DNA of 40,159 nt from a virus: positions 1 to 40,159 of IMG/VR virus record IMGVR_UViG_3300023094_000006; one strand, written 5' to 3'. The notes beneath the pieces are model-generated. The model had not been told where the DNA came from and did not search any database. It was given only the letters and a program-made list of their open reading frames with translations. Made by a program: the position numbers and the translations under genes. Below, one piece after another: positions 2,782-38,246 of this stretch (within the stretch, counting starts at the first letter, position 1; every line of letters starts with the position of its first letter).

Positions 2782-3007
2782 ACTCACCAACGACCAGATC
2801 GAGACCGAAGCCGCCAAGCTGTTCGACGCCGAGACCGCCGAAGTCATGGCCTTCGGCAAGGCAGTCCTCGCCGCAGTAGGTGAAAGCCCCGACACGCTCG
2901 ACAAGTTCGAGACCTTCACCAACGAGACGTCCTGGGACAAGGCCGACGACACAACCAAGGACATGTACCGTCAGGCCGTCATCAACGGCGAACGCGCCAA
3001 TGACTGA
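2774..3007 (+). CDS. Hypothetical acidic protein (77 aa)
   Basis: A 77-residue acidic, mostly helical protein. ATG 2774 is preceded by a strong AAAGGAGA ribosome site at about 7 nt, which decides this start over the long in-frame extension upstream (Ser/Thr/Pro-rich, shadow-like). It overlaps the preceding gene by 8 nt and the DHFR gene by 8 nt, so the three are probably translationally coupled. No known motif. Confidence 0.7.
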   Translation: MPELTNDQIETEAAKLFDAETAEVMAFGKAVLAAVGESPDTLDKFETFTNETSWDKADDTTKDMYRQAVINGERAND

Positions 3008-3605
3008 GTCGCGGGCCGCCAAGGTCCAAGCCGTCTGGGCGGAAACACTCTCCCCCAGCGGCAACCTCATCATGGGTGACTCCAAGACCAACGGCCTGCC
3101 CTGGCCTACCAACCGCGCTGACCTCCGGCACTTCCGCGAGACCACCCGCAACACAGTCATGGTCATGGGTCGGCGCACCTTCGAGTCGCTCCCCGAGCTC
3201 CTCAAGACGCCTAAGTCCACCGCTGAGCGCCCGCTCGTCGTCCTGACCGAACACGTCGGGGCGGCTATGCGTATCTGGAGTGATTACCAGAACTCTGAAA
3301 TCGTTCCCATCGTCCCCGCGGGCCCGGACACGACAGTCGACCACGTCATCGCCATCGCGGGCATCCGCTGGCCAGGCAAAAACCTCAGCATCATCGGAGG
3401 CGCCGGCGTCATCGAGCTCTTCGAACCCGCCACGGACACCATGGTCATCTCATCCATCCAGCCGGCTTACCACTACGAAGGCGACGTCAAGTCACCATTC
3501 ACCCCGCCGTGGAGCGTCAATGACAACTTCGCCGTCAACAACAGCGACTCCCGCGCCCTCGCCCCCGACTTCACCACCTACGTCTACCGCTACGAAAGGG
3601 TCTAA
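3000..3605 (+). CDS. folA: Dihydrofolate reductase
   Basis: A 201-residue protein starting at ATG 3000, overlapping the previous stop. DHFR reduces dihydrofolate to tetrahydrofolate with NADPH in the cytosol. Visible family marks: NGLPWP with the following NRADLRHF (substrate loop and acidic Asp), VMVMGRRTFESLP (the MGRxTxxS NADPH motif at about residues 55-64), a PLVVLT strand, and LSIIGGAGVIELF (the GG cofactor-loop motif). It is longer than the usual ~160 residues because of a C-terminal extension. Its stop overlaps the start of the ThyA-like gene (TAATG), a classic pairing: DHFR recycles the dihydrofolate made by reductive methylation. Confidence 0.9.
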   Translation: MTESRAAKVQAVWAETLSPSGNLIMGDSKTNGLPWPTNRADLRHFRETTRNTVMVMGRRTFESLPELLKTPKSTAERPLVVLTEHVGAAMRIWSDYQNSEIVPIVPAGPDTTVDHVIAIAGIRWPGKNLSIIGGAGVIELFEPATDTMVISSIQPAYHYEGDVKSPFTPPWSVNDNFAVNNSDSRALAPDFTTYVYRYERV

Positions 3606-4549
3606 TGCGTTACGGCCAACACCACTTCCCCTTCGAGATGCTCCTCAACGAGGTAGCCCTCGAGGGCGAGCTCCGCACTGACCGGACCGGCACAGGCACC
3701 AGGAGCATCTTCTCGCCCAACCCCCTTCGCTTTGACCTCTCGGGCGGGCACGTCCCCCTCATCACCTCCAAGGCGGTGCCCTGGAAGATGGCTACTCGCG
3801 AGTTCATGTGGATGCTGTCAGGCAGCACTTCAACCCGCGACCTCGCCGAGGCCTCTCCCGCCATGGCCCGCATCTGGGACAACTGGGCAGACGCCAACGG
3901 AGACCTAGGACCGACCTACGGCGCCCAGTACCGCAACGCCGGCGGCTCGCTCTCCACAGGCGACCTTTCCCCCTTCCCCTCAGGCGAATGGGCGGCAAGC
4001 CAGCAGGCGGGCCTGAAGCACGACTACGGAGTAGACCAGCTCGCGCGCATCGTCAAGATGCTAGCCAAGACGCCTGACACCCGTCGGGCCGTCATCTCCC
4101 TCTGGTCCGTACCCGAGCTGGATGACATGGCCCTGGAGCCCTGCATGGTCCTCTTCCAGTTCTCACTCCGGGGGCCCAACCTCAACGAGCTCCACGTCCA
4201 GGTCTATCAGCGCTCGGCCGACATGATGCTCGGTGTCCCGTTCGACCTCTACCAGGCCGGCCTCCTCGCCCACCTGGTCGCCCGCGAGCTCACCCTCATC
4301 ACTGGTCGCGTCATCACCGCGGAAGGCATGACCTGGTCTGCAGGTGACGCACACATCTACCTCAACCAGCTGGGCCCCGTAGAAGTCCAGCTCAACCAGT
4401 GGGCCAACGCGGAGGTGATGCAGGCTAGAATATCAATAGACCCGTTCCCAAGCCTTCGTCTCCTCGACGGCAGCCTGGAAGCTGGCCACATTAACGTCCT
4501 CAACTACAACCCCGAGCCGGCAGTCGGCGGCGGGCAGATCGCTATCTAA
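3605..4549 (+). CDS. ThyA-fold pyrimidine methylase; Asp in the specificity position suggests a dCMP-type enzyme
   Basis: A 314-residue protein of the thymidylate synthase fold (usual length 264-316). Motifs: DRTGTGTRSIF (phosphate-binding Arg), EFMWMLSG (conserved Glu), IWDNWADANGDLGPTYG, RRAVISLWSVPELDDMALEPC (catalytic Cys180), YQRSADMMLGVPFD, GDAHIYLNQ, and a C-terminus ending IAI. In dUMP-specific enzymes the PF motif is followed by Asn (E. coli Asn177); here it is Asp. Asn-to-Asp at this position is known to give dCMP methylation in engineered ThyA, and phage T4 dCMP hydroxymethylase has Asp there naturally. DHFR next door and the intact C-terminal Ile favour methylase over hydroxymethylase. 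dTMP synthesis remains possible. Confidence 0.85.
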   Translation: MRYGQHHFPFEMLLNEVALEGELRTDRTGTGTRSIFSPNPLRFDLSGGHVPLITSKAVPWKMATREFMWMLSGSTSTRDLAEASPAMARIWDNWADANGDLGPTYGAQYRNAGGSLSTGDLSPFPSGEWAASQQAGLKHDYGVDQLARIVKMLAKTPDTRRAVISLWSVPELDDMALEPCMVLFQFSLRGPNLNELHVQVYQRSADMMLGVPFDLYQAGLLAHLVARELTLITGRVITAEGMTWSAGDAHIYLNQLGPVEVQLNQWANAEVMQARISIDPFPSLRLLDGSLEAGHINVLNYNPEPAVGGGQIAI

Positions 4550-4557
4550 GGAACCCC

Positions 4558-4821
4558 ATGACCGAGCCACTCTCGCTATTCGCGCAGTACGTCCACCTCT
4601 CGCTCAACGCACTCGAGGACGCCAAAGTCTTGGAGTCCGAATCCAACAACGCCTCAGCCGGCCGGGCAATCGCAGCCGCTCAAGTCTACGCCACGCTGGC
4701 CCAGGCCGAGGGTGCCATCAAGACGGCCCAGCTCGTCACGGCCGCCTTGGCCGCTACCATGACCGCCGGCCAAGCCCACCAGCTAGCTAGTGCCGTAGAC
4801 GTGCTCACAGACCCCCAGTAA
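4558..4821 (+). CDS. Hypothetical Ala-rich helical protein (87 aa)
   Basis: An 87-residue protein with a TAAGGAA site before ATG 4558, 8 bp after the ThyA-like gene. Ala is very frequent and the sequence (AGRAIAAAQVYATLAQAEGAIKTAQLVTAALAATMTAGQ, quoted only as a region of residues about 32-70) predicts long amphipathic helices rather than membrane segments. No domain recognised. Confidence 0.65.
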   Translation: MTEPLSLFAQYVHLSLNALEDAKVLESESNNASAGRAIAAAQVYATLAQAEGAIKTAQLVTAALAATMTAGQAHQLASAVDVLTDPQ

Positions 4822-4859: not shown

Positions 4860-6041
4860 ATGAAGAAACTCACCACCCTGGCCGCTACCGTCTCGGTAGC
4901 CCTGGCCCTGTCGGTATCCGCGGGCCAGCTGGCCTTCGCCGACGACACCATCCCGACCGAGGAGGTCGCATCATCGCCAGTCATCGCAGAGGCCCCGCCG
5001 GAGACTACTGTCTCGACTGGATCCAGCCCCGCTACATCCGCCGTTGGCGCACCATCCCCCGCTACACAGGAGAAGGCCCTAACGCCCTCACCTGGATCAG
5101 AAGCATCGGAAGCCAGCCCCGCCATCTCGGCCGCCCCCATTACTCCGGTGACCCCCACGGCATCAACCCCAGCCCTCGCCTCCGTACCTTCGCCCGCAAC
5201 CGGTGAGTTCTTCTGGGCCATGCCGAACGGCGGCACCCCGGACCACGTCACCTACGACCAGACCTACTCCCCCCAGGGCGCAGTCACCCCGGGCGTCTGC
5301 TACCAGGTCGACACCTACCTCCTGAGTGAGGCGCCCAAGTTCACAGCTGACGGCAAGCTGACCCTGGGCGAGGACTACCAGAACGACTCCCAGCGTGGAG
5401 CCATCTCCTGGCGCTTCGTATGCGTTCCGGCACTCCCCACCCCGCCCGCCACTGTCGTGACCATCACGGTCCCCACCCTGGCCCCGACCCCGCCGACCTG
5501 CGACACCGCGGGCACTCTGCCCTTCCTCTCCAACCCGGCAGCTCAGAACCCCAACGGCTACGAGTTCCCGGGCCAGGGCTTCCGCGTCTACATCAGCCCC
5601 GCATTCTCAGGTCCGGGCGTCTACACCGCGACCATCCAGAAAGTCGGCGCAGGCTTCGACCCCGCCTTCCCCAAGGGCACCAAAGTCGTCGGCGCTACCA
5701 CCCAGACGCTGACCGTCCTCGCGGCCACGGGCTTCCAGTCAACCGACGCATCGGCCCCGTGCTACGTCACCCCGCCGGTCATCCCGGATGAGCCGACCGT
5801 CCCCGAGACGCCCACCACCCCGGCAACCCCGGTAACGCCCGCCACTCCTGAGCAGACTGTCCAGGCGCCCGTCGCCCCGGTCGAGCACGCCGTCACCAAG
5901 CAGACCCCGGCGCCTGCGGACAGCCTGGCCTACACCGGCCAGGATGGCTACAACTGGCCCGCCCTGTTCGTCGCCCTCGCGCTCGCCCTCATCGGCACCC
6001 TCGCCCTCATCTTCGAATCCCGCCGCAACAAGAACGTCTAG
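4860..6041 (+). CDS. Secreted, sortase-anchored surface protein (signal peptide and LAYTG sorting signal)
   Basis: A 393-residue protein with a Sec signal peptide: MKK, a hydrophobic stretch to about residue 22, and a likely cleavage after AFA (residue 27). Residues 28-120 and about 300-350 are Pro/Thr/Ala/Glu-rich linkers like wall-spanning stalks. The middle holds a globular part with four Cys (GVCYQ, FVCVP, TCDTAG, APCYV) that could form two disulfides. The C-terminus has LAYTG at 356-360, a hydrophobic span, and a charged tail ESRRNKNV: the layout of a sortase substrate, with LAxTG as used by actinobacterial class E sortases. The host would anchor it to peptidoglycan. A role in superinfection exclusion or surface change is inferred. 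Ribosome site TAAGGAA. Confidence 0.85.
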   Translation: MKKLTTLAATVSVALALSVSAGQLAFADDTIPTEEVASSPVIAEAPPETTVSTGSSPATSAVGAPSPATQEKALTPSPGSEASEASPAISAAPITPVTPTASTPALASVPSPATGEFFWAMPNGGTPDHVTYDQTYSPQGAVTPGVCYQVDTYLLSEAPKFTADGKLTLGEDYQNDSQRGAISWRFVCVPALPTPPATVVTITVPTLAPTPPTCDTAGTLPFLSNPAAQNPNGYEFPGQGFRVYISPAFSGPGVYTATIQKVGAGFDPAFPKGTKVVGATTQTLTVLAATGFQSTDASAPCYVTPPVIPDEPTVPETPTTPATPVTPATPEQTVQAPVAPVEHAVTKQTPAPADSLAYTGQDGYNWPALFVALALALIGTLALIFESRRNKNV

Positions 6042-9955: not shown

Positions 9956-10282
9956 ATGGTCGCCTCCAAAGCAGGCCCGCTTCTCGCGGCATTCAACCAA
10001 GCGGTCAAGGATAACAAGCACCTTGAGCCCGTCGACAACGCCACAATCGAAGCCGGCCGGTCAATCGCCAAGGCAATTGACGACATTACGGCCGATCCCG
10101 AAGCGTCAGCGACTGACAAAACCAAGGCTTTGTACCTAACACCCCACCTCATCAGCATTCTCCGCGAGCTCCTCGCCACGCCCGCTGCCCGCAAAGCACT
10201 CGGCGTGGCGGCCGCCGACCAGAAGAAAGCTGGCCGCTTGAGCCTCATCAAGGACAACGCCAAGGCCACAACCACCAAGTAG
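9956..10282 (+). CDS. Terminase small subunit (putative)
   Basis: A 108-residue helical protein with a TAGGAGT site before ATG 9956, directly upstream of the large terminase gene. The pattern of an Ala-rich N-terminal helix, IDDITADPE linker, KALYLTPHLISILRELL helix and ARKALGVAA near the C-terminus matches small terminase proteins of actinophages, which bind the packaging site and deliver DNA to the large subunit. The call rests on that resemblance from memory and on position; sequence conservation in this family is low. Confidence 0.7.
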   Translation: MVASKAGPLLAAFNQAVKDNKHLEPVDNATIEAGRSIAKAIDDITADPEASATDKTKALYLTPHLISILRELLATPAARKALGVAAADQKKAGRLSLIKDNAKATTTK

Positions 10283-30667: not shown

Positions 30668-31174
30668 ATGACCGACAACTCAGACCTCCAGCGCTTGCTT
30701 GACACGCAGGAGTCCCTTCAACGCATCATCACCGGCGAATCCCCCGGTGACTTCCTCCCAGAGAACGTAAACGCCGCAGTTCATACCATCAGCATGAACG
30801 TCCTCGCGCTGACAGACGAACTGCACGAGCTCCTAGCAGAGACGTCCTGGAAGCCGTGGGCCAAAGGTGACTACATCAACCTGACCGCCGCCAAGAGCGA
30901 GGCCATCGACGCCCTGCACTTCCTGCTCAACATCTTCCTGACGCTGGGCATGGACGCAGACGAAGTCCTCGAGAAGTACATAGCCAAGAACGCTAAGAAC
31001 ATCTCACGCCAGGAAGCCGGCTACGACGGCGTCAGCACCAAGTGCCCAGGCTGTAAACGCGCCCTGGACGACGACGGCGTCGAATGCTACCTCGCACCCC
31101 AGCCCATCGCGGACGCTGGCCCCGACTACGTCTACTGCGCCAAGCTCCGCACCTACGTCAAGGTGCCGGCATGA
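30668..31174 (+). CDS. All-alpha dNTP pyrophosphatase (dUTPase/dCTPase, MazG-like) with C-terminal zinc ribbon
   Basis: A 168-residue protein. Residues of about 50-105 hold the metal-binding pattern of all-alpha NTP pyrophosphatases: ELHELLAE (ExxE), a conserved WKPWAKGDY and KSEAIDALHFLLN (ExxD). Relatives turn dUTP or dCTP into the monophosphate; the T4 dCTPase is thought to belong to the same superfamily. The C-terminal region adds a Cys cluster (STKCPGCKRALDDDG, then GVECY and YVYC) that may bind zinc. It is coupled by ATGA to the kinase gene. The substrate is not decided by sequence; dCTP would fit the modified ThyA-like enzyme at 3605-4549. Confidence 0.75.
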   Translation: MTDNSDLQRLLDTQESLQRIITGESPGDFLPENVNAAVHTISMNVLALTDELHELLAETSWKPWAKGDYINLTAAKSEAIDALHFLLNIFLTLGMDADEVLEKYIAKNAKNISRQEAGYDGVSTKCPGCKRALDDDGVECYLAPQPIADAGPDYVYCAKLRTYVKVPA

Positions 31175-31686
31175 TGTCGTCCATGAAGCCGTTCATCATC
31201 GTCCTCGAGGGTGCTGACGGAACTGGCAAGACGACCGCCGTCCAGGCCGGCCAGGCCTATGCCCACAGCCAAGGCATGGAAGTCAGGTCCATTCACAACG
31301 GGCCCGACGACGCCGACCTGCCGGGCAGTCTATACCGCCACTATCGCGCCCAGCTTCTTGACGCCATCGACTTCCGCGACCAAGGCATCTCGACCTTCAT
31401 CGACCGCAGCTTCCTCAGCGAAGCCATCTACGGAGGCGTCTACCGCGGCAACTCACGCATATCCAGCTTTGGGCTGATCCGCCTAGAGAACCTGGCGCGC
31501 CATCACGGCATCGAGCTCATGGCCTTTGAGGCACCTGACGGTCTGCGCAAGACCCGCATCGAAGAGCGCGGAGAAGTCTGGGACGAGTACAAAGACCCCA
31601 CGATCGGCGAGCTCTACACCGAATACTTCCGGCTGCACACCAGCTGGATCACTGCCGACAGACTGTCGACAACTCTCAATAACTAG
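31171..31686 (+). CDS. Deoxynucleoside monophosphate kinase (thymidylate kinase-like)
   Basis: A 171-residue P-loop kinase starting in the ATGA overlap at 31171 (ATG 31174 possible). EGADGTGKTT at residues 13-22 is the Walker A of thymidylate kinases, followed by FIDRSFLSEAIYGG (the DR motif for the nucleotide) and an Arg-rich LID-like region (RKTRIEERGEVWDEYKD). It phosphorylates a dNMP with ATP. Next to a dNTP pyrophosphatase it probably handles dTMP or a modified pyrimidine monophosphate, as the T4 gp1 kinase does. Confidence 0.8.
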   Translation: MMSSMKPFIIVLEGADGTGKTTAVQAGQAYAHSQGMEVRSIHNGPDDADLPGSLYRHYRAQLLDAIDFRDQGISTFIDRSFLSEAIYGGVYRGNSRISSFGLIRLENLARHHGIELMAFEAPDGLRKTRIEERGEVWDEYKDPTIGELYTEYFRLHTSWITADRLSTTLNN

Positions 31687-33930: not shown

Positions 33931-36381
33931 ATGGTCAACATCAAGATCACTCCTCCGGGGCCGCCTCTCTCGGAACTCCTCGCCCAGCTCAAGAACGTCT
34001 CGGAAGAGCGTGACGGCTGGATCGCCAAGTGCCCCGCTCATGACGACGCCAAGGCCTCACTCAGAGTCACAGTCTCAGCAGAGACCGGCAAAGTGCTGGT
34101 CCACGACCGAGCTGGCTGCAAGACAGTCGACATCATGCACGCCATCGGCCTCAAGGTCAAAGACCTCGCCGGCATGGAGGCAGACGTCCACCCCTCCCAC
34201 GATGCCCAGTCGACTGATGCCCTGCCTGAAGCACCCGAGCTGGCGAGCCTGGCCACCGTCCTAGACGGTTACGCGTCCACGCTGGCCACCCCGTCAGGCG
34301 CCCCCGCCCTCGCCTATGCCGCCCAGCGATTCGGCGTCGAGCCTGAAGACGCCCGCCGCATTGGCCTCGGCTACACCACAGAGCTCGGCGGCGGGCCTCG
34401 CCTCGTCGTGCCCTTCCGCGACAAGGACGGCAAAGCCCTAGGCTTCCAGGCCCGAGCCCTCAACGACGTGGCCAAGATTCGCTGGACCGGACCTATCAAC
34501 CCGGACAACGCCAGCTGGTCTCGCATCGGCTTCTTCCCGGGCGGAAGCGGCTGGCCAGAAGTCATTGTCACCGAAGGCCCAGGCGATGCCCTCACCGCCA
34601 TGGCTGCGGGCTATGACGCCATCGCGGTCCGAGGTGCCGGCCTCGCCAACAACGAAGCCACCACCCTGGCCCTGGTCGAGATGCTCCGAGGACGTGTAGC
34701 CATCATCGCAGGCGACGGTGACGCAGCCGGCCGGAACTTCTCTGCCACCATCACGGAGGCCCTACTCGAGCATGACATCGAGACCAAAATCCTCCGCCTC
34801 AAGGAGGACCGCGACCTAACCGACTGGCGTCGAGATGACCCGGCTGGTTTCGCCCAGTCACTAGTCAAGTACGTCAAGGCGCTCACTCCGCTTACGGCTG
34901 AGCAGGCCGAGATGATGGCCTGGAATACCGACCTCTACACCCTCAGCGACATTGGAGGAGCACGCTACCTTCGAGACTCCATGTCTGCCAAAGGCCGAGC
35001 CCTCCGCTACACGACAGCCACCGGCTTCCTCCAGCTTGAGCGAGGCATCTGGACGCCCAAGTCAGACACCCAGGTCCGAACCATCGTCCAGTCCATCGGC
35101 GACGACCTCCGCACTATCTGGGAAGCAGCCAAGCGAACAGCCACCAAGACCAAGGAGCAGGCCGACTACAAGAGAGCCAACGACTTCGGGGACTTCATGC
35201 AGTACGCCCAGTCGTCGCGAGGTATTGAGTCCATCTTCAAGGAGCTCAAGTCCGTCACGGGTGTCCACGCCGACATCGAAGACTTTGACAAATACCCGTA
35301 CTATCTGGCCGTCCGCAACGGCATCGTGGACCTCCGCGACGGTAGCCTCATCCCTCACGACCCCGCTCTCCTCCTGACCCGCCGCATCGATCACGACTAC
35401 GACAAGAACGCCAAGGCCCCTCGCTGGCTGAAGTTCCTGGAAGAGGTGTTCCCTGACCAGCCCGAAATGCCGGCCTACCTCCAGCGCCTAGTCGGCTATG
35501 GCATCACGGGTAACGTCGATGAACAATGCTTCGTGGTCAACTACGGCACAGGCTCCAACGGTAAATCAATCTTCACCGACACCCTCACCGACATCTTCGA
35601 GCCCATCACCACCACCACGCCATTTTCCACCTTCGAAGCTCGCCGAGGCGACGGAGTCCCAAACGACCTGGCAGCATTGGCCGGGGCGCGCCTGGTCATG
35701 GCACCCGAGGGTAACCAGGGAAAGCTGATGGACGAGGCCCTACTCAAGCGAGTCACTGGCCGCGACCTCATTGCGGCCCGCTTCCTCCGCCGGGAGTTCT
35801 TCACCTTCCGCCCACAGTTCCTGCTCTTCATGTCATCCAACTACCGCCCGGCATTCAAGGGCCAGGACGAGGGCCTCTGGCGACGAGTCAAGCTGCTTGA
35901 GTGGCGACGGCACTTCGACGCCAATGAGCGTGACCCCAAGCTACCGGAGAAGCTGCTAGCCGAAGCGGCGGGCATCCTGGCGTGGGCAGTGGCGGGCGCT
36001 GTCGAGTGGTACGCCAACGGACTGCAAGAGCCGACCGCGGTGGCTGAGGTGACAAGCGACTACCGTGTCCAGTCAGATGCGCTCAACGGCTTCCTGCCGG
36101 GCGTCTTCGAGCAGGGCGACGATACCAACTTCGTCCCGCGCACCGACCTCTTCCGAGCCTTCCAAGACTGGGCCGACGAAGGCAACTTCCGGGACATGCA
36201 GTCCTGGTCGTCTCGTGCCGTCTACCGCGCCATCGAAGAGCGAGGCTTCCCCAGCCACCGCAAGAATGGCGTCATCGGGTTCAAGCGAATCAAGCGGGTA
36301 GAAACCCCGTCACAGCTGGCTAAGGTTGAACTGAACCAAGCCGCTCCGCCACTGACCGGCCCAACTCTCGAGGACCTATGA
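33931..36381 (+). CDS. Primase-helicase (zinc/TOPRIM primase plus D5/P4-type SF3 helicase)
   Basis: An 816-residue replication protein. The N-terminal primase part has a zinc site (KCPAHDDAKASL, then VHDRAGCKT), followed by a TOPRIM domain with VIVTEGPGDA (about 211-220) and AGDGDAAG (about 260-267). A D5-N-like part comes next (ADIEDFDKYPYYLAVRNGI). The C-terminal SF3 helicase has Walker A GTGSNGKS at 539-546 and FLLFMSSNYRPAF with the sensor Asn. Such proteins make primers and unwind DNA, and P4-type members also recognise origin repeats. Coupled by ATGA to the polymerase gene. Confidence 0.93.
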   Translation: MVNIKITPPGPPLSELLAQLKNVSEERDGWIAKCPAHDDAKASLRVTVSAETGKVLVHDRAGCKTVDIMHAIGLKVKDLAGMEADVHPSHDAQSTDALPEAPELASLATVLDGYASTLATPSGAPALAYAAQRFGVEPEDARRIGLGYTTELGGGPRLVVPFRDKDGKALGFQARALNDVAKIRWTGPINPDNASWSRIGFFPGGSGWPEVIVTEGPGDALTAMAAGYDAIAVRGAGLANNEATTLALVEMLRGRVAIIAGDGDAAGRNFSATITEALLEHDIETKILRLKEDRDLTDWRRDDPAGFAQSLVKYVKALTPLTAEQAEMMAWNTDLYTLSDIGGARYLRDSMSAKGRALRYTTATGFLQLERGIWTPKSDTQVRTIVQSIGDDLRTIWEAAKRTATKTKEQADYKRANDFGDFMQYAQSSRGIESIFKELKSVTGVHADIEDFDKYPYYLAVRNGIVDLRDGSLIPHDPALLLTRRIDHDYDKNAKAPRWLKFLEEVFPDQPEMPAYLQRLVGYGITGNVDEQCFVVNYGTGSNGKSIFTDTLTDIFEPITTTTPFSTFEARRGDGVPNDLAALAGARLVMAPEGNQGKLMDEALLKRVTGRDLIAARFLRREFFTFRPQFLLFMSSNYRPAFKGQDEGLWRRVKLLEWRRHFDANERDPKLPEKLLAEAAGILAWAVAGAVEWYANGLQEPTAVAEVTSDYRVQSDALNGFLPGVFEQGDDTNFVPRTDLFRAFQDWADEGNFRDMQSWSSRAVYRAIEERGFPSHRKNGVIGFKRIKRVETPSQLAKVELNQAAPPLTGPTLEDL

Positions 36382-38246
36382 GAACACTGACCCACGTCAT
36401 CGACGGCGAGACCTGCTTCATTCGCGTACCCGAAAACGATGACGACATCCGGCTCTTCATGAACTGGATGTCCAAGCACTCGCGCGAGCCATTGGCCATC
36501 GATACCGAGACCACTGGCCTCCGCGTCTTCGGCAATGGATTCGAAGCACGCCTAGTCCAGATCGGATCAACCGTCGAAGCCTGGGTAATCAGAGGCGTTC
36601 AATTCCGCGACTGGATTCAGCACGCCGTCAGAGCGCACCCTCAATGGGTCGCTCACAACTTTGCTTTTGATGCACAAGTCCTAGAGCGCACCATTGGATT
36701 GACCATTGAAGAAATGACCCCCAAGCTTTTCGACACCATCATCCTCTCAAAGCTGATCGAGCCCCACCGCGCAGGCGGCCACAAGCTCAAGCCACTGGCC
36801 GTCCAGTACGTCGACCCAAACGCCGTCGACACCCAGGAAGACCTCACAGCCCGCTTCCGCGAGCTGGGCTTTACCAAAGAGACCGGCTGGACAGGCATCC
36901 CCATCGACGATGAGCTCTATCTCCGGTACGCCGGCCTAGACGTGCTCTACGACGCACGCCTCCTCAAGGTGCTGGTCCCCAAGGCCAAAGCCCTGATGCT
37001 GACTGAGCTCTCACAGTTCGAGCACACCATCCAGGGTTACCTGAACATCATGCGCCGGCGGGGCCTGCGTGTCGACCTCGACTATGCGGCCAGCCAGCGG
37101 GAAATCTTCCTCCAAGAATCTGCCGAGCACCTAGCGATCGCCCGCAACCAGTTCGGCCTGGACAACCTCAACTCGCCCAAGCAAGTACAGGAGGCCCTCC
37201 TAGCCTCGGGCGCGGAGCTCACTGAACGCAACCCCTCCGGCTCATTCAAAGTCGGCAAGGAAGTCCTGCTACCGCTGGCCGGCATGGATGAATACTGGGG
37301 AGACATCGAAGGCTTCGAGAACCCCAACGAACTCGCCATGCACATTGCCCGCGGCAAACGGGCTGAGCGCTTCGGCAACGCCTACCTAGGCAAGTTCATA
37401 GACCTGGCCGACCCCAACGGCCGTATCCACCCGGACATCACAGGTCTGCAGGCCCGCACCTCTCGCATGGCTGTCTCCGACCCGCCACTCCAGCAACTGC
37501 CGTCCAAGGACTGGAAAGTCCGCCGGGCCATCCTCGCCGACCCGGGACAAGTCATCATCTCCGCTGACTACGCCCAGATCGAGATGCGCCTAGTCGCCGC
37601 GATGGCTGACATCCGCCGGATGAAGGAGGCCATCGAGAATGGGCTAGACCTCCACGGCTACACCGCGGAGCTCGCCTACGGCCCGGACTACACCACCCAA
37701 AACCGCACGCATATGAAAGGAGCAGGCTTTGGAATTGTCTATGGTGGCGGCGCCAAGGGCCTGGCGCCTAAGCTAGGCATCAGCCTCTCGCAGGCAACCT
37801 CGGTAGTGAAGGCCTACAACAGGGTCTACCCCGAAATCAAGCGGTGGTCCAACAAACTACAGCGTGATGCGCGGGCCAACCACATGATGATGCGCTCACC
37901 AACCGGCCGCATCCTGGCTCTCGACCGCGATAGAGTTTACGCCGCGATCAACTACCAAGTCCAGTCCACAGCGGCCGACGTTCTGAAGAACGCACTAGAA
38001 GCACTCTTCCTAGCCGGCCTAGGCGACCACCTCCTCATGCCGGTCCATGACGAAATCATTGCCCAAGCCCCGGAGGCAGACGCTCCAGAAGTATCCCGGG
38101 CCATCGCGAAGGCAATGGAGACTACAGTTATGGATATGCACCTTGACGCCGATAGCGAAGTCTACGGCTTCAGCTGGGGCCACGGCCATGACTACGCAGA
38201 TGCTGCCACCTTGGCCACACCACTATTCACCAATCGCCCAAACTAA
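36378..38246 (+). CDS. DNA polymerase, family A, with 3'-5' exonuclease
   Basis: A 622-residue DNA polymerase I-type enzyme lacking the 5' nuclease. The exonuclease has IDTETTGL (Asp42, Glu44), WVAHNFAFDAQVL and RYAGLDVLYDARLL. The polymerase has motif A SADYAQIEMRL, motif B RTHMKGAGFGIVYGGG (the Arg, Lys, Phe and Tyr in normal spacing; Phe in the position that decides ddNTP discrimination) and motif C PVHDEI. It replicates the phage genome with the primase-helicase just upstream. Confidence 0.95.
   Translation: MRTLTHVIDGETCFIRVPENDDDIRLFMNWMSKHSREPLAIDTETTGLRVFGNGFEARLVQIGSTVEAWVIRGVQFRDWIQHAVRAHPQWVAHNFAFDAQVLERTIGLTIEEMTPKLFDTIILSKLIEPHRAGGHKLKPLAVQYVDPNAVDTQEDLTARFRELGFTKETGWTGIPIDDELYLRYAGLDVLYDARLLKVLVPKAKALMLTELSQFEHTIQGYLNIMRRRGLRVDLDYAASQREIFLQESAEHLAIARNQFGLDNLNSPKQVQEALLASGAELTERNPSGSFKVGKEVLLPLAGMDEYWGDIEGFENPNELAMHIARGKRAERFGNAYLGKFIDLADPNGRIHPDITGLQARTSRMAVSDPPLQQLPSKDWKVRRAILADPGQVIISADYAQIEMRLVAAMADIRRMKEAIENGLDLHGYTAELAYGPDYTTQNRTHMKGAGFGIVYGGGAKGLAPKLGISLSQATSVVKAYNRVYPEIKRWSNKLQRDARANHMMMRSPTGRILALDRDRVYAAINYQVQSTAADVLKNALEALFLAGLGDHLLMPVHDEIIAQAPEADAPEVSRAIAKAMETTVMDMHLDADSEVYGFSWGHGHDYADAATLATPLFTNRPN

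Follow-up and report, generated by a model that had tools for sequence, protein, structure and literature searches.

Which nucleotide does the ThyA-like enzyme of this phage modify, and what would its product mean for the phage DNA? The window, i.e. the whole stretch of 40,159 nucleotides analysed here (IMG/VR virus record IMGVR_UViG_3300023094_000006), encodes on its plus strand (3605..4549) a ThyA-family enzyme of 314 amino acids, a predicted dCMP C5-methyltransferase whose clade is called thymidylate synthase in GenBank annotation. Our preferred reading, to which we give a probability of roughly 70%, is a pathway leading from dCTP to dCMP, 5-methyl-dCMP and 5-methyl-dCTP, by which 5-methylcytosine would take the place of cytosine as the phage DNA is synthesised.

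The family assignment of the enzyme is clear from the Pfam Thymidylat_synt profile (PF00303, E 1.3e-67) and from the predicted structure (mean pLDDT 75.7, pTM 0.80), which matches M. tuberculosis ThyA with Z 28.5 and rmsd 2.5 over 263 residues and E. coli ThyA with Z ~28, both overlays spanning residues 7-314. T4 gp42 was absent from the best 50 structural matches listed, which is no evidence against a likeness to it. For the active site we aligned the enzyme with an E. coli ThyA sequence that was checked at positions 58, 94, 143, 146, 147, 166-168, 177, 207 and 209 (positions 92 to 177 are henceforth E. coli positions unless a residue of the window enzyme is named). The alignment shows that Glu58 (E66 in the window enzyme), Trp80, Tyr94 (Y105), Cys146 (C180, the catalytic nucleophile, codon 4142..4144, plus strand), Arg166 (R203), Ser167, Asp169, His207 (H250) and Tyr209 (Y252) are all kept, and the C-terminus (QIAI, or KPAV in most relatives) retains a ThyA-like tail. 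Two positions depart from this pattern. Asp214 (4244..4246, plus strand) takes the place of Asn177 of E. coli ThyA, the dUMP/dCMP switch, and Met181 (4145..4147, plus strand), the residue next after the catalytic Cys, replaces His147, the other position at which enzymes of modified-cytosine phages stand out. The enzyme thus lacks the Asn177 and His147 of dUMP-specific thymidylate synthases and has the Asp177 of Xp12-type dCMP methyltransferases, as do AXL1 and DoCa6. The first-pass annotation, made from the sequence alone, had claimed both the Asn-to-Asp switch and an otherwise intact catalytic site (Cys180, the Arg and Glu sites, HIY); the comparison with E. coli ThyA that it proposed upholds both, with Asp and not Asn in the specificity site. 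The exchange of His147 for Met had escaped it. A single PF00303 gene is present in the window, and searches there for a second ThyA, a ThyX, a dCMP deaminase or a DNA C5-methyltransferase gave nothing.

The window is closest to the cluster EB phages of Microbacterium (genera Dismasvirus and Armstrongvirus) and to Curtobacterium phages. It seems circularly permuted with respect to these relatives, with the terminase near base 10000. A shared backbone of structural genes is found in about 100 phage records (94 Microbacterium, 7 Curtobacterium), and 83 records in the phage collection carry a protein 60-80% identical to the ThyA-like protein; some phages are counted twice, being entered under separate accessions, and residues were read in a subset. 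This subset comprised 11 distinct clade members, namely the window, six IMG/VR contigs and the isolates Didgeridoo, Brahms, Dismas and Curtobacterium phage Shayna. Every one of them has Asp177 together with Met147 (11/11), at roughly 57-66% identity to the window enzyme where measured. Since Asp177 is kept across isolates and IMG/VR relatives, Asp214 is no sequencing error. The next sister, contig L046, combines Asp177 with Pro147. When 84,980 genomes of bacteria and archaea were scanned by peptide pattern, a method that reaches close relatives only, neither a bacterial homolog of the ThyA-like protein nor any indication of a prophage origin came up. Elsewhere in the window, 31699-32418 matches a recombination-directionality-factor-like family (PF18897), in a group of phages described as lytic and without integrase.

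The MetaGPA study, which set contigs from a modified-cytosine selection against unmodified contigs, named 177 and 147 as the two positions that differ most, and it cites mutant studies in which Asn-to-Asp at 177 redirects ThyA to dCMP (PMC8670742). We surveyed both positions by two specificity-motif scans of 2.9 million viral contigs, which gave 84 Asp and at least 120 Asn stretches; the combined set had 214 scorable rows, E. coli included and a few contigs present twice. Among the matches listed, every Asn177 enzyme had His147 (121/121), against 58/93 of the Asp177 enzymes, the remaining 35/93 having Met (15), Thr (9), Pro (6) or other residues (5), and the 15 Met147 rows all fell in the window's clade. 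This association gives a Fisher value of 2.5e-15 for the matches listed, ignoring kinship, and it is partial in that many Asp177 enzymes retain His147. On a tree of 171 enzymes, built with columns 92, 143, 144, 147 and 177 left out, position 177 changes at least 17 times, and the window's clade forms one supported group (9 rows, SH-aLRT 99) placed apart from the Xp12-like enzyme, whose row has a long branch. About 2/9 independent tree pairs were informative for the association with 147, all in the expected direction and not significant, so that we use the 147 link as supporting evidence only. Several other enzymes (L091, L035, L070, L026, L046, L074, L099 and L022) pair Asp177 with an unusual residue at 147 (Pro, Leu, Tyr or Cys) and represent further candidate dCMP-modifying lineages.

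We infer that dCMP is very probably the main substrate of the window enzyme. The cytosine-substrate reading put forward in the first-pass annotation is actually firmer than was claimed there, given Met147, the relationship of the pyrophosphatase to gp56, the kinase homolog described below and a conserved clade of some 100 records. A conventional dUMP thymidylate synthase with a tolerance for Asp, serving to raise the dTMP supply, would agree with the Pfam and GenBank labels and with the frequent occurrence of dihydrofolate reductase (DHFR) in phages with ordinary ThyA; we regard it as unlikely, because Asp177 and the loss of His147 are both fixed in the clade, published mutants tie Asp177 to dCMP, and a gp56-like pyrophosphatase is present.

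As for the group added to dCMP, the signature of T4 dCMP hydroxymethylase consists of an acidic residue (Asp or Glu) at the third position ahead of the catalytic Cys and a Ser or Thr at the second position ahead of the Tyr (PMC6400193). The window enzyme has its own Leu177 (4133..4135, plus strand) and Pro103 at these places, as in methylating ThyA, versus Asp145 at the first of them in the T4 enzyme. The signature is not perfectly clean, as Xp12-like enzymes have Ser at 92, and hence Asp143 alone separates them from hydroxymethylases. A DHFR gene (3000..3605, plus strand, PF00186, E 7.6e-16) lies directly upstream, its TAA stop overlapping the ATG of the ThyA-like gene (TAATG). Dihydrofolate is what remains after methylation, and tetrahydrofolate after hydroxymethylation (PMC6400193), which is why DHFR fits methylation; the absence of the hydroxymethylation signature together with this overlap leads us to predict methylation. 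As a general marker of cytosine modification DHFR had to be rejected, being equally frequent beside Asn-type (10/39 contigs) and Asp-type (10/38) enzymes, and none is annotated in Shayna. The preference for 5-methyl-dCMP over hydroxymethyl-dCMP in the first-pass annotation therefore stands by way of the missing T4 signature, whereas its DHFR argument is weak.

A dCMP hydroxymethylase, giving DNA with 5-hydroxymethylcytosine, is about as improbable as the ordinary synthase. It would share Asp177 with T4 gp42 and suit a gp56-like pyrophosphatase, and one kinase homolog does adjoin a hydroxymethylase-type enzyme, but it is at odds with Leu/Ile three before the Cys and Pro at 92 in the places of Asp and Ser, with the retained C-terminal tail and with an overlapping DHFR gene, hydroxymethylation yielding tetrahydrofolate and not dihydrofolate. 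No glycosyltransferase or other decorating enzyme was recognised among the window proteins scanned.

The predicted gp56-like dCTP/dUTP pyrophosphatase (30668..31174, plus strand) matches a dUTPase_2-type profile (PF08761, E 3.4e-16) and is 30% identical to T4 gp56, a dCTPase/dUTPase (E 7e-16). A phage-wide search with it recovered, outside the clade, mainly T-even-type gp56 proteins, and the metal motif EXXE...EXXD of this type is present (E51-x-x-E54, E78-x-x-D81). Its C-terminal CPGC...C tail resembles a zinc ribbon, is missing in T4 gp56 and recurs in Gordonia phage Forza. In Shayna a PRA-PH/MazG-type protein occupies the place of the pyrophosphatase beside the kinase, so that it looks as though what is retained is the function and not the gene itself. 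A dUTPase_2 gene accompanies 8/38 Asp-type and 1/39 Asn-type contigs (p 0.014); we discarded this co-occurrence because the signal comes mostly from the window's clade, without which p is 0.33.

The start of the next gene (31171..31686, plus strand), which encodes a thymidylate-kinase-like P-loop kinase, overlaps the end of the pyrophosphatase gene. The kinase stays below Pfam cut-offs, was recognised through PHROG 761 (E 8e-19) and has as best Foldseek match a dTMP kinase, weakly (E 3.7e-3, TM ~0.5, from a model of middling confidence). Although nearly confined to the window's clade, it has a homolog (29%, E 2.6e-12) in the unrelated contig L094 (L094:1618-2760), where the gene immediately downstream of that homolog encodes a T4-type dCMP hydroxymethylase, a single case that links the kinase family to 5-modified dCMP and suggests that the window's protein may be a 5-methyl-dCMP kinase. 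The pyrophosphatase, kinase and DHFR genes are all present as first described.

In the pathway that we favour, the pyrophosphatase would cut dCTP, and probably dUTP too, to the monophosphate, at once removing normal dCTP and supplying dCMP. Asp214 would orient the cytosine and protonate it at N3 while Cys180 attacks C6; the methylene of CH2-tetrahydrofolate would then be transferred and reduced by hydride, giving 5-methyl-dCMP and dihydrofolate, the latter recycled by the coupled DHFR. The phage kinase may convert the product into 5-methyl-dCDP and a host kinase into 5-methyl-dCTP. This could be incorporated by the phage polymerase, for which the window has a family A DNA polymerase gene (36378..38246, plus strand, PF00476, E 5.6e-58) in this presumed role, and the genome would, as a consequence, resist host restriction enzymes that read cytosine. 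On these grounds the phage DNA probably contains 5-methylcytosine in bulk. A detour in which a host deaminase turns 5-methyl-dCMP into dTMP and leaves the DNA unmodified is very improbable, even if several phages with Xp12-like enzymes, AXL1 included, co-encode a dCMP deaminase, since the window has none and the gp56-like pyrophosphatase and phage kinase indicate dCTP exclusion and phosphorylation of the product. Palindrome and CpG composition proved uninformative as a footprint of modification, with few genomes and no clean unmodified control from the same host (observed/expected 6-mer palindromes 0.93-0.96 in three EB genomes, 0.83 in Arthrobacter phage Kepler, 0.87 in AXL1 and 0.97 in part of T4).

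To our knowledge few phages have all their cytosine replaced by 5-methylcytosine; the classic case is Xp12. One paper reports that 5-methylcytosine stands for every cytosine in Xp12 and that the DNA of its relative AXL1 withstands most restriction enzymes whose sites contain G/C, and it gives the genetic mechanism as unknown (PMC9206674). The Xp12-like enzymes compared here were those of the relatives AXL1 and DoCa6, both with Asp177 and Pro147. Like the Xp12 group (Xp12, AXL1, DLP4, DoCa6), the window has an enzyme of the ThyA family in which 177 is Asp and 147 is not His, genes for DHFR and a nucleotide pyrophosphatase lie close by, and the product is methylated, in our case by prediction. 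Yet it differs from AXL1 in that the two enzymes are only ~28% identical, with Pro147, Ser92 and Asn143 in AXL1, which also encodes a dCMP deaminase, and in that the window's enzyme has a separate place in the tree.

The T4 pathway consists of a dCTPase (gp56), a dCMP hydroxymethylase (gp42) and a dNMP kinase. With it the window has in common the gp56-like pyrophosphatase (30%), Asp at the specificity site and a phage kinase, which may be unrelated to that of T4; unlike T4, its enzyme is without the hydroxymethylase residues, DHFR is coupled to it and no glucosyltransferase was found. The T4 set seen in the first-pass annotation is right as to the relationship of the pyrophosphatase to gp56, but the closest known pathway is that of Xp12, because the predicted product differs from that of T4. 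By analogy, the predicted pathway would work like that of Xp12 with the dCTPase of T4. From canonical ThyA (E. coli, M. tuberculosis), with which it shares the fold over residues 7-314, the catalytic residues and the C-terminal tail, the enzyme is set apart by Asp for Asn177, Met for His147 and a low-confidence insert around residues 114-141. The CMP hydroxymethylases MilA/BcmA likewise have Asp at the cytosine site (PMC5175136); unlike MilA (Ala and Lys), the window enzyme keeps the deoxynucleotide-type Ser204 and Arg160-Arg161 pair. This kind of pathway is known; for the clade, an active site with Asp177 and Met147, and the combination of genes we found no report in the open-licence literature searched. 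Nor did modified bases or restriction tests of cluster EB or EA phages turn up in that literature, which included work on Microbacterium phages.

Cluster EA offers a comparison on the same host. The enzymes of Mercedes (L234:34251-35090), Guetzie (L235:33876-34682) and Garey24 (L236:35578-36345), annotated thymidylate synthase, have the full hydroxymethylase signature (Ser92, Asp143, Thr147, Asp177). Glycosyltransferases are annotated in Mercedes and Garey24 (2/3 EA genomes read), and the two in Mercedes match the TET-associated glycosyltransferase family TAGT (PF20691). We predict from these genes that all three are hydroxymethylcytosine phages. As M. foliorum NRRL B-24224 serves as host to most EB phages and is also infected by Guetzie and Garey24, two phage clusters on one host appear to disguise cytosine differently. 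The chances lean slightly towards the broader generalisation, in which cluster EB and its Curtobacterium relatives (~100 records) would make 5-methylcytosine by a dCMP methyltransferase that arose apart from that of Xp12, with a T4 gp56-like dCTPase, and cluster EA would use a T4-type hydroxymethylase, in some phages with glycosyltransferases. If this is true, a whole cluster of cultured and sequenced teaching-laboratory phages of a soil host, their enzymes now annotated simply as thymidylate synthase, would join the 5-methylcytosine group; Asp177 with Met147 would be a second active-site solution for the dUMP/dCMP switch; the pyrophosphatase-kinase pair would be explained; and comparison of EB with EA on the same host could ask which host defences drive which modification.

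For the open reading frames downstream of the ThyA-like gene (4558-4821 and 4860-6041), profile and homology searches found no connection to modification. The second encodes a Pro/Thr-rich protein of 393 residues whose start resembles a signal peptide and whose end is sortase-like (LAYTG, a hydrophobic stretch and RR). It is absent from the EB relatives checked, but other Microbacterium phages have 'membrane proteins' that share 74-75% identity with its residues 214-302.
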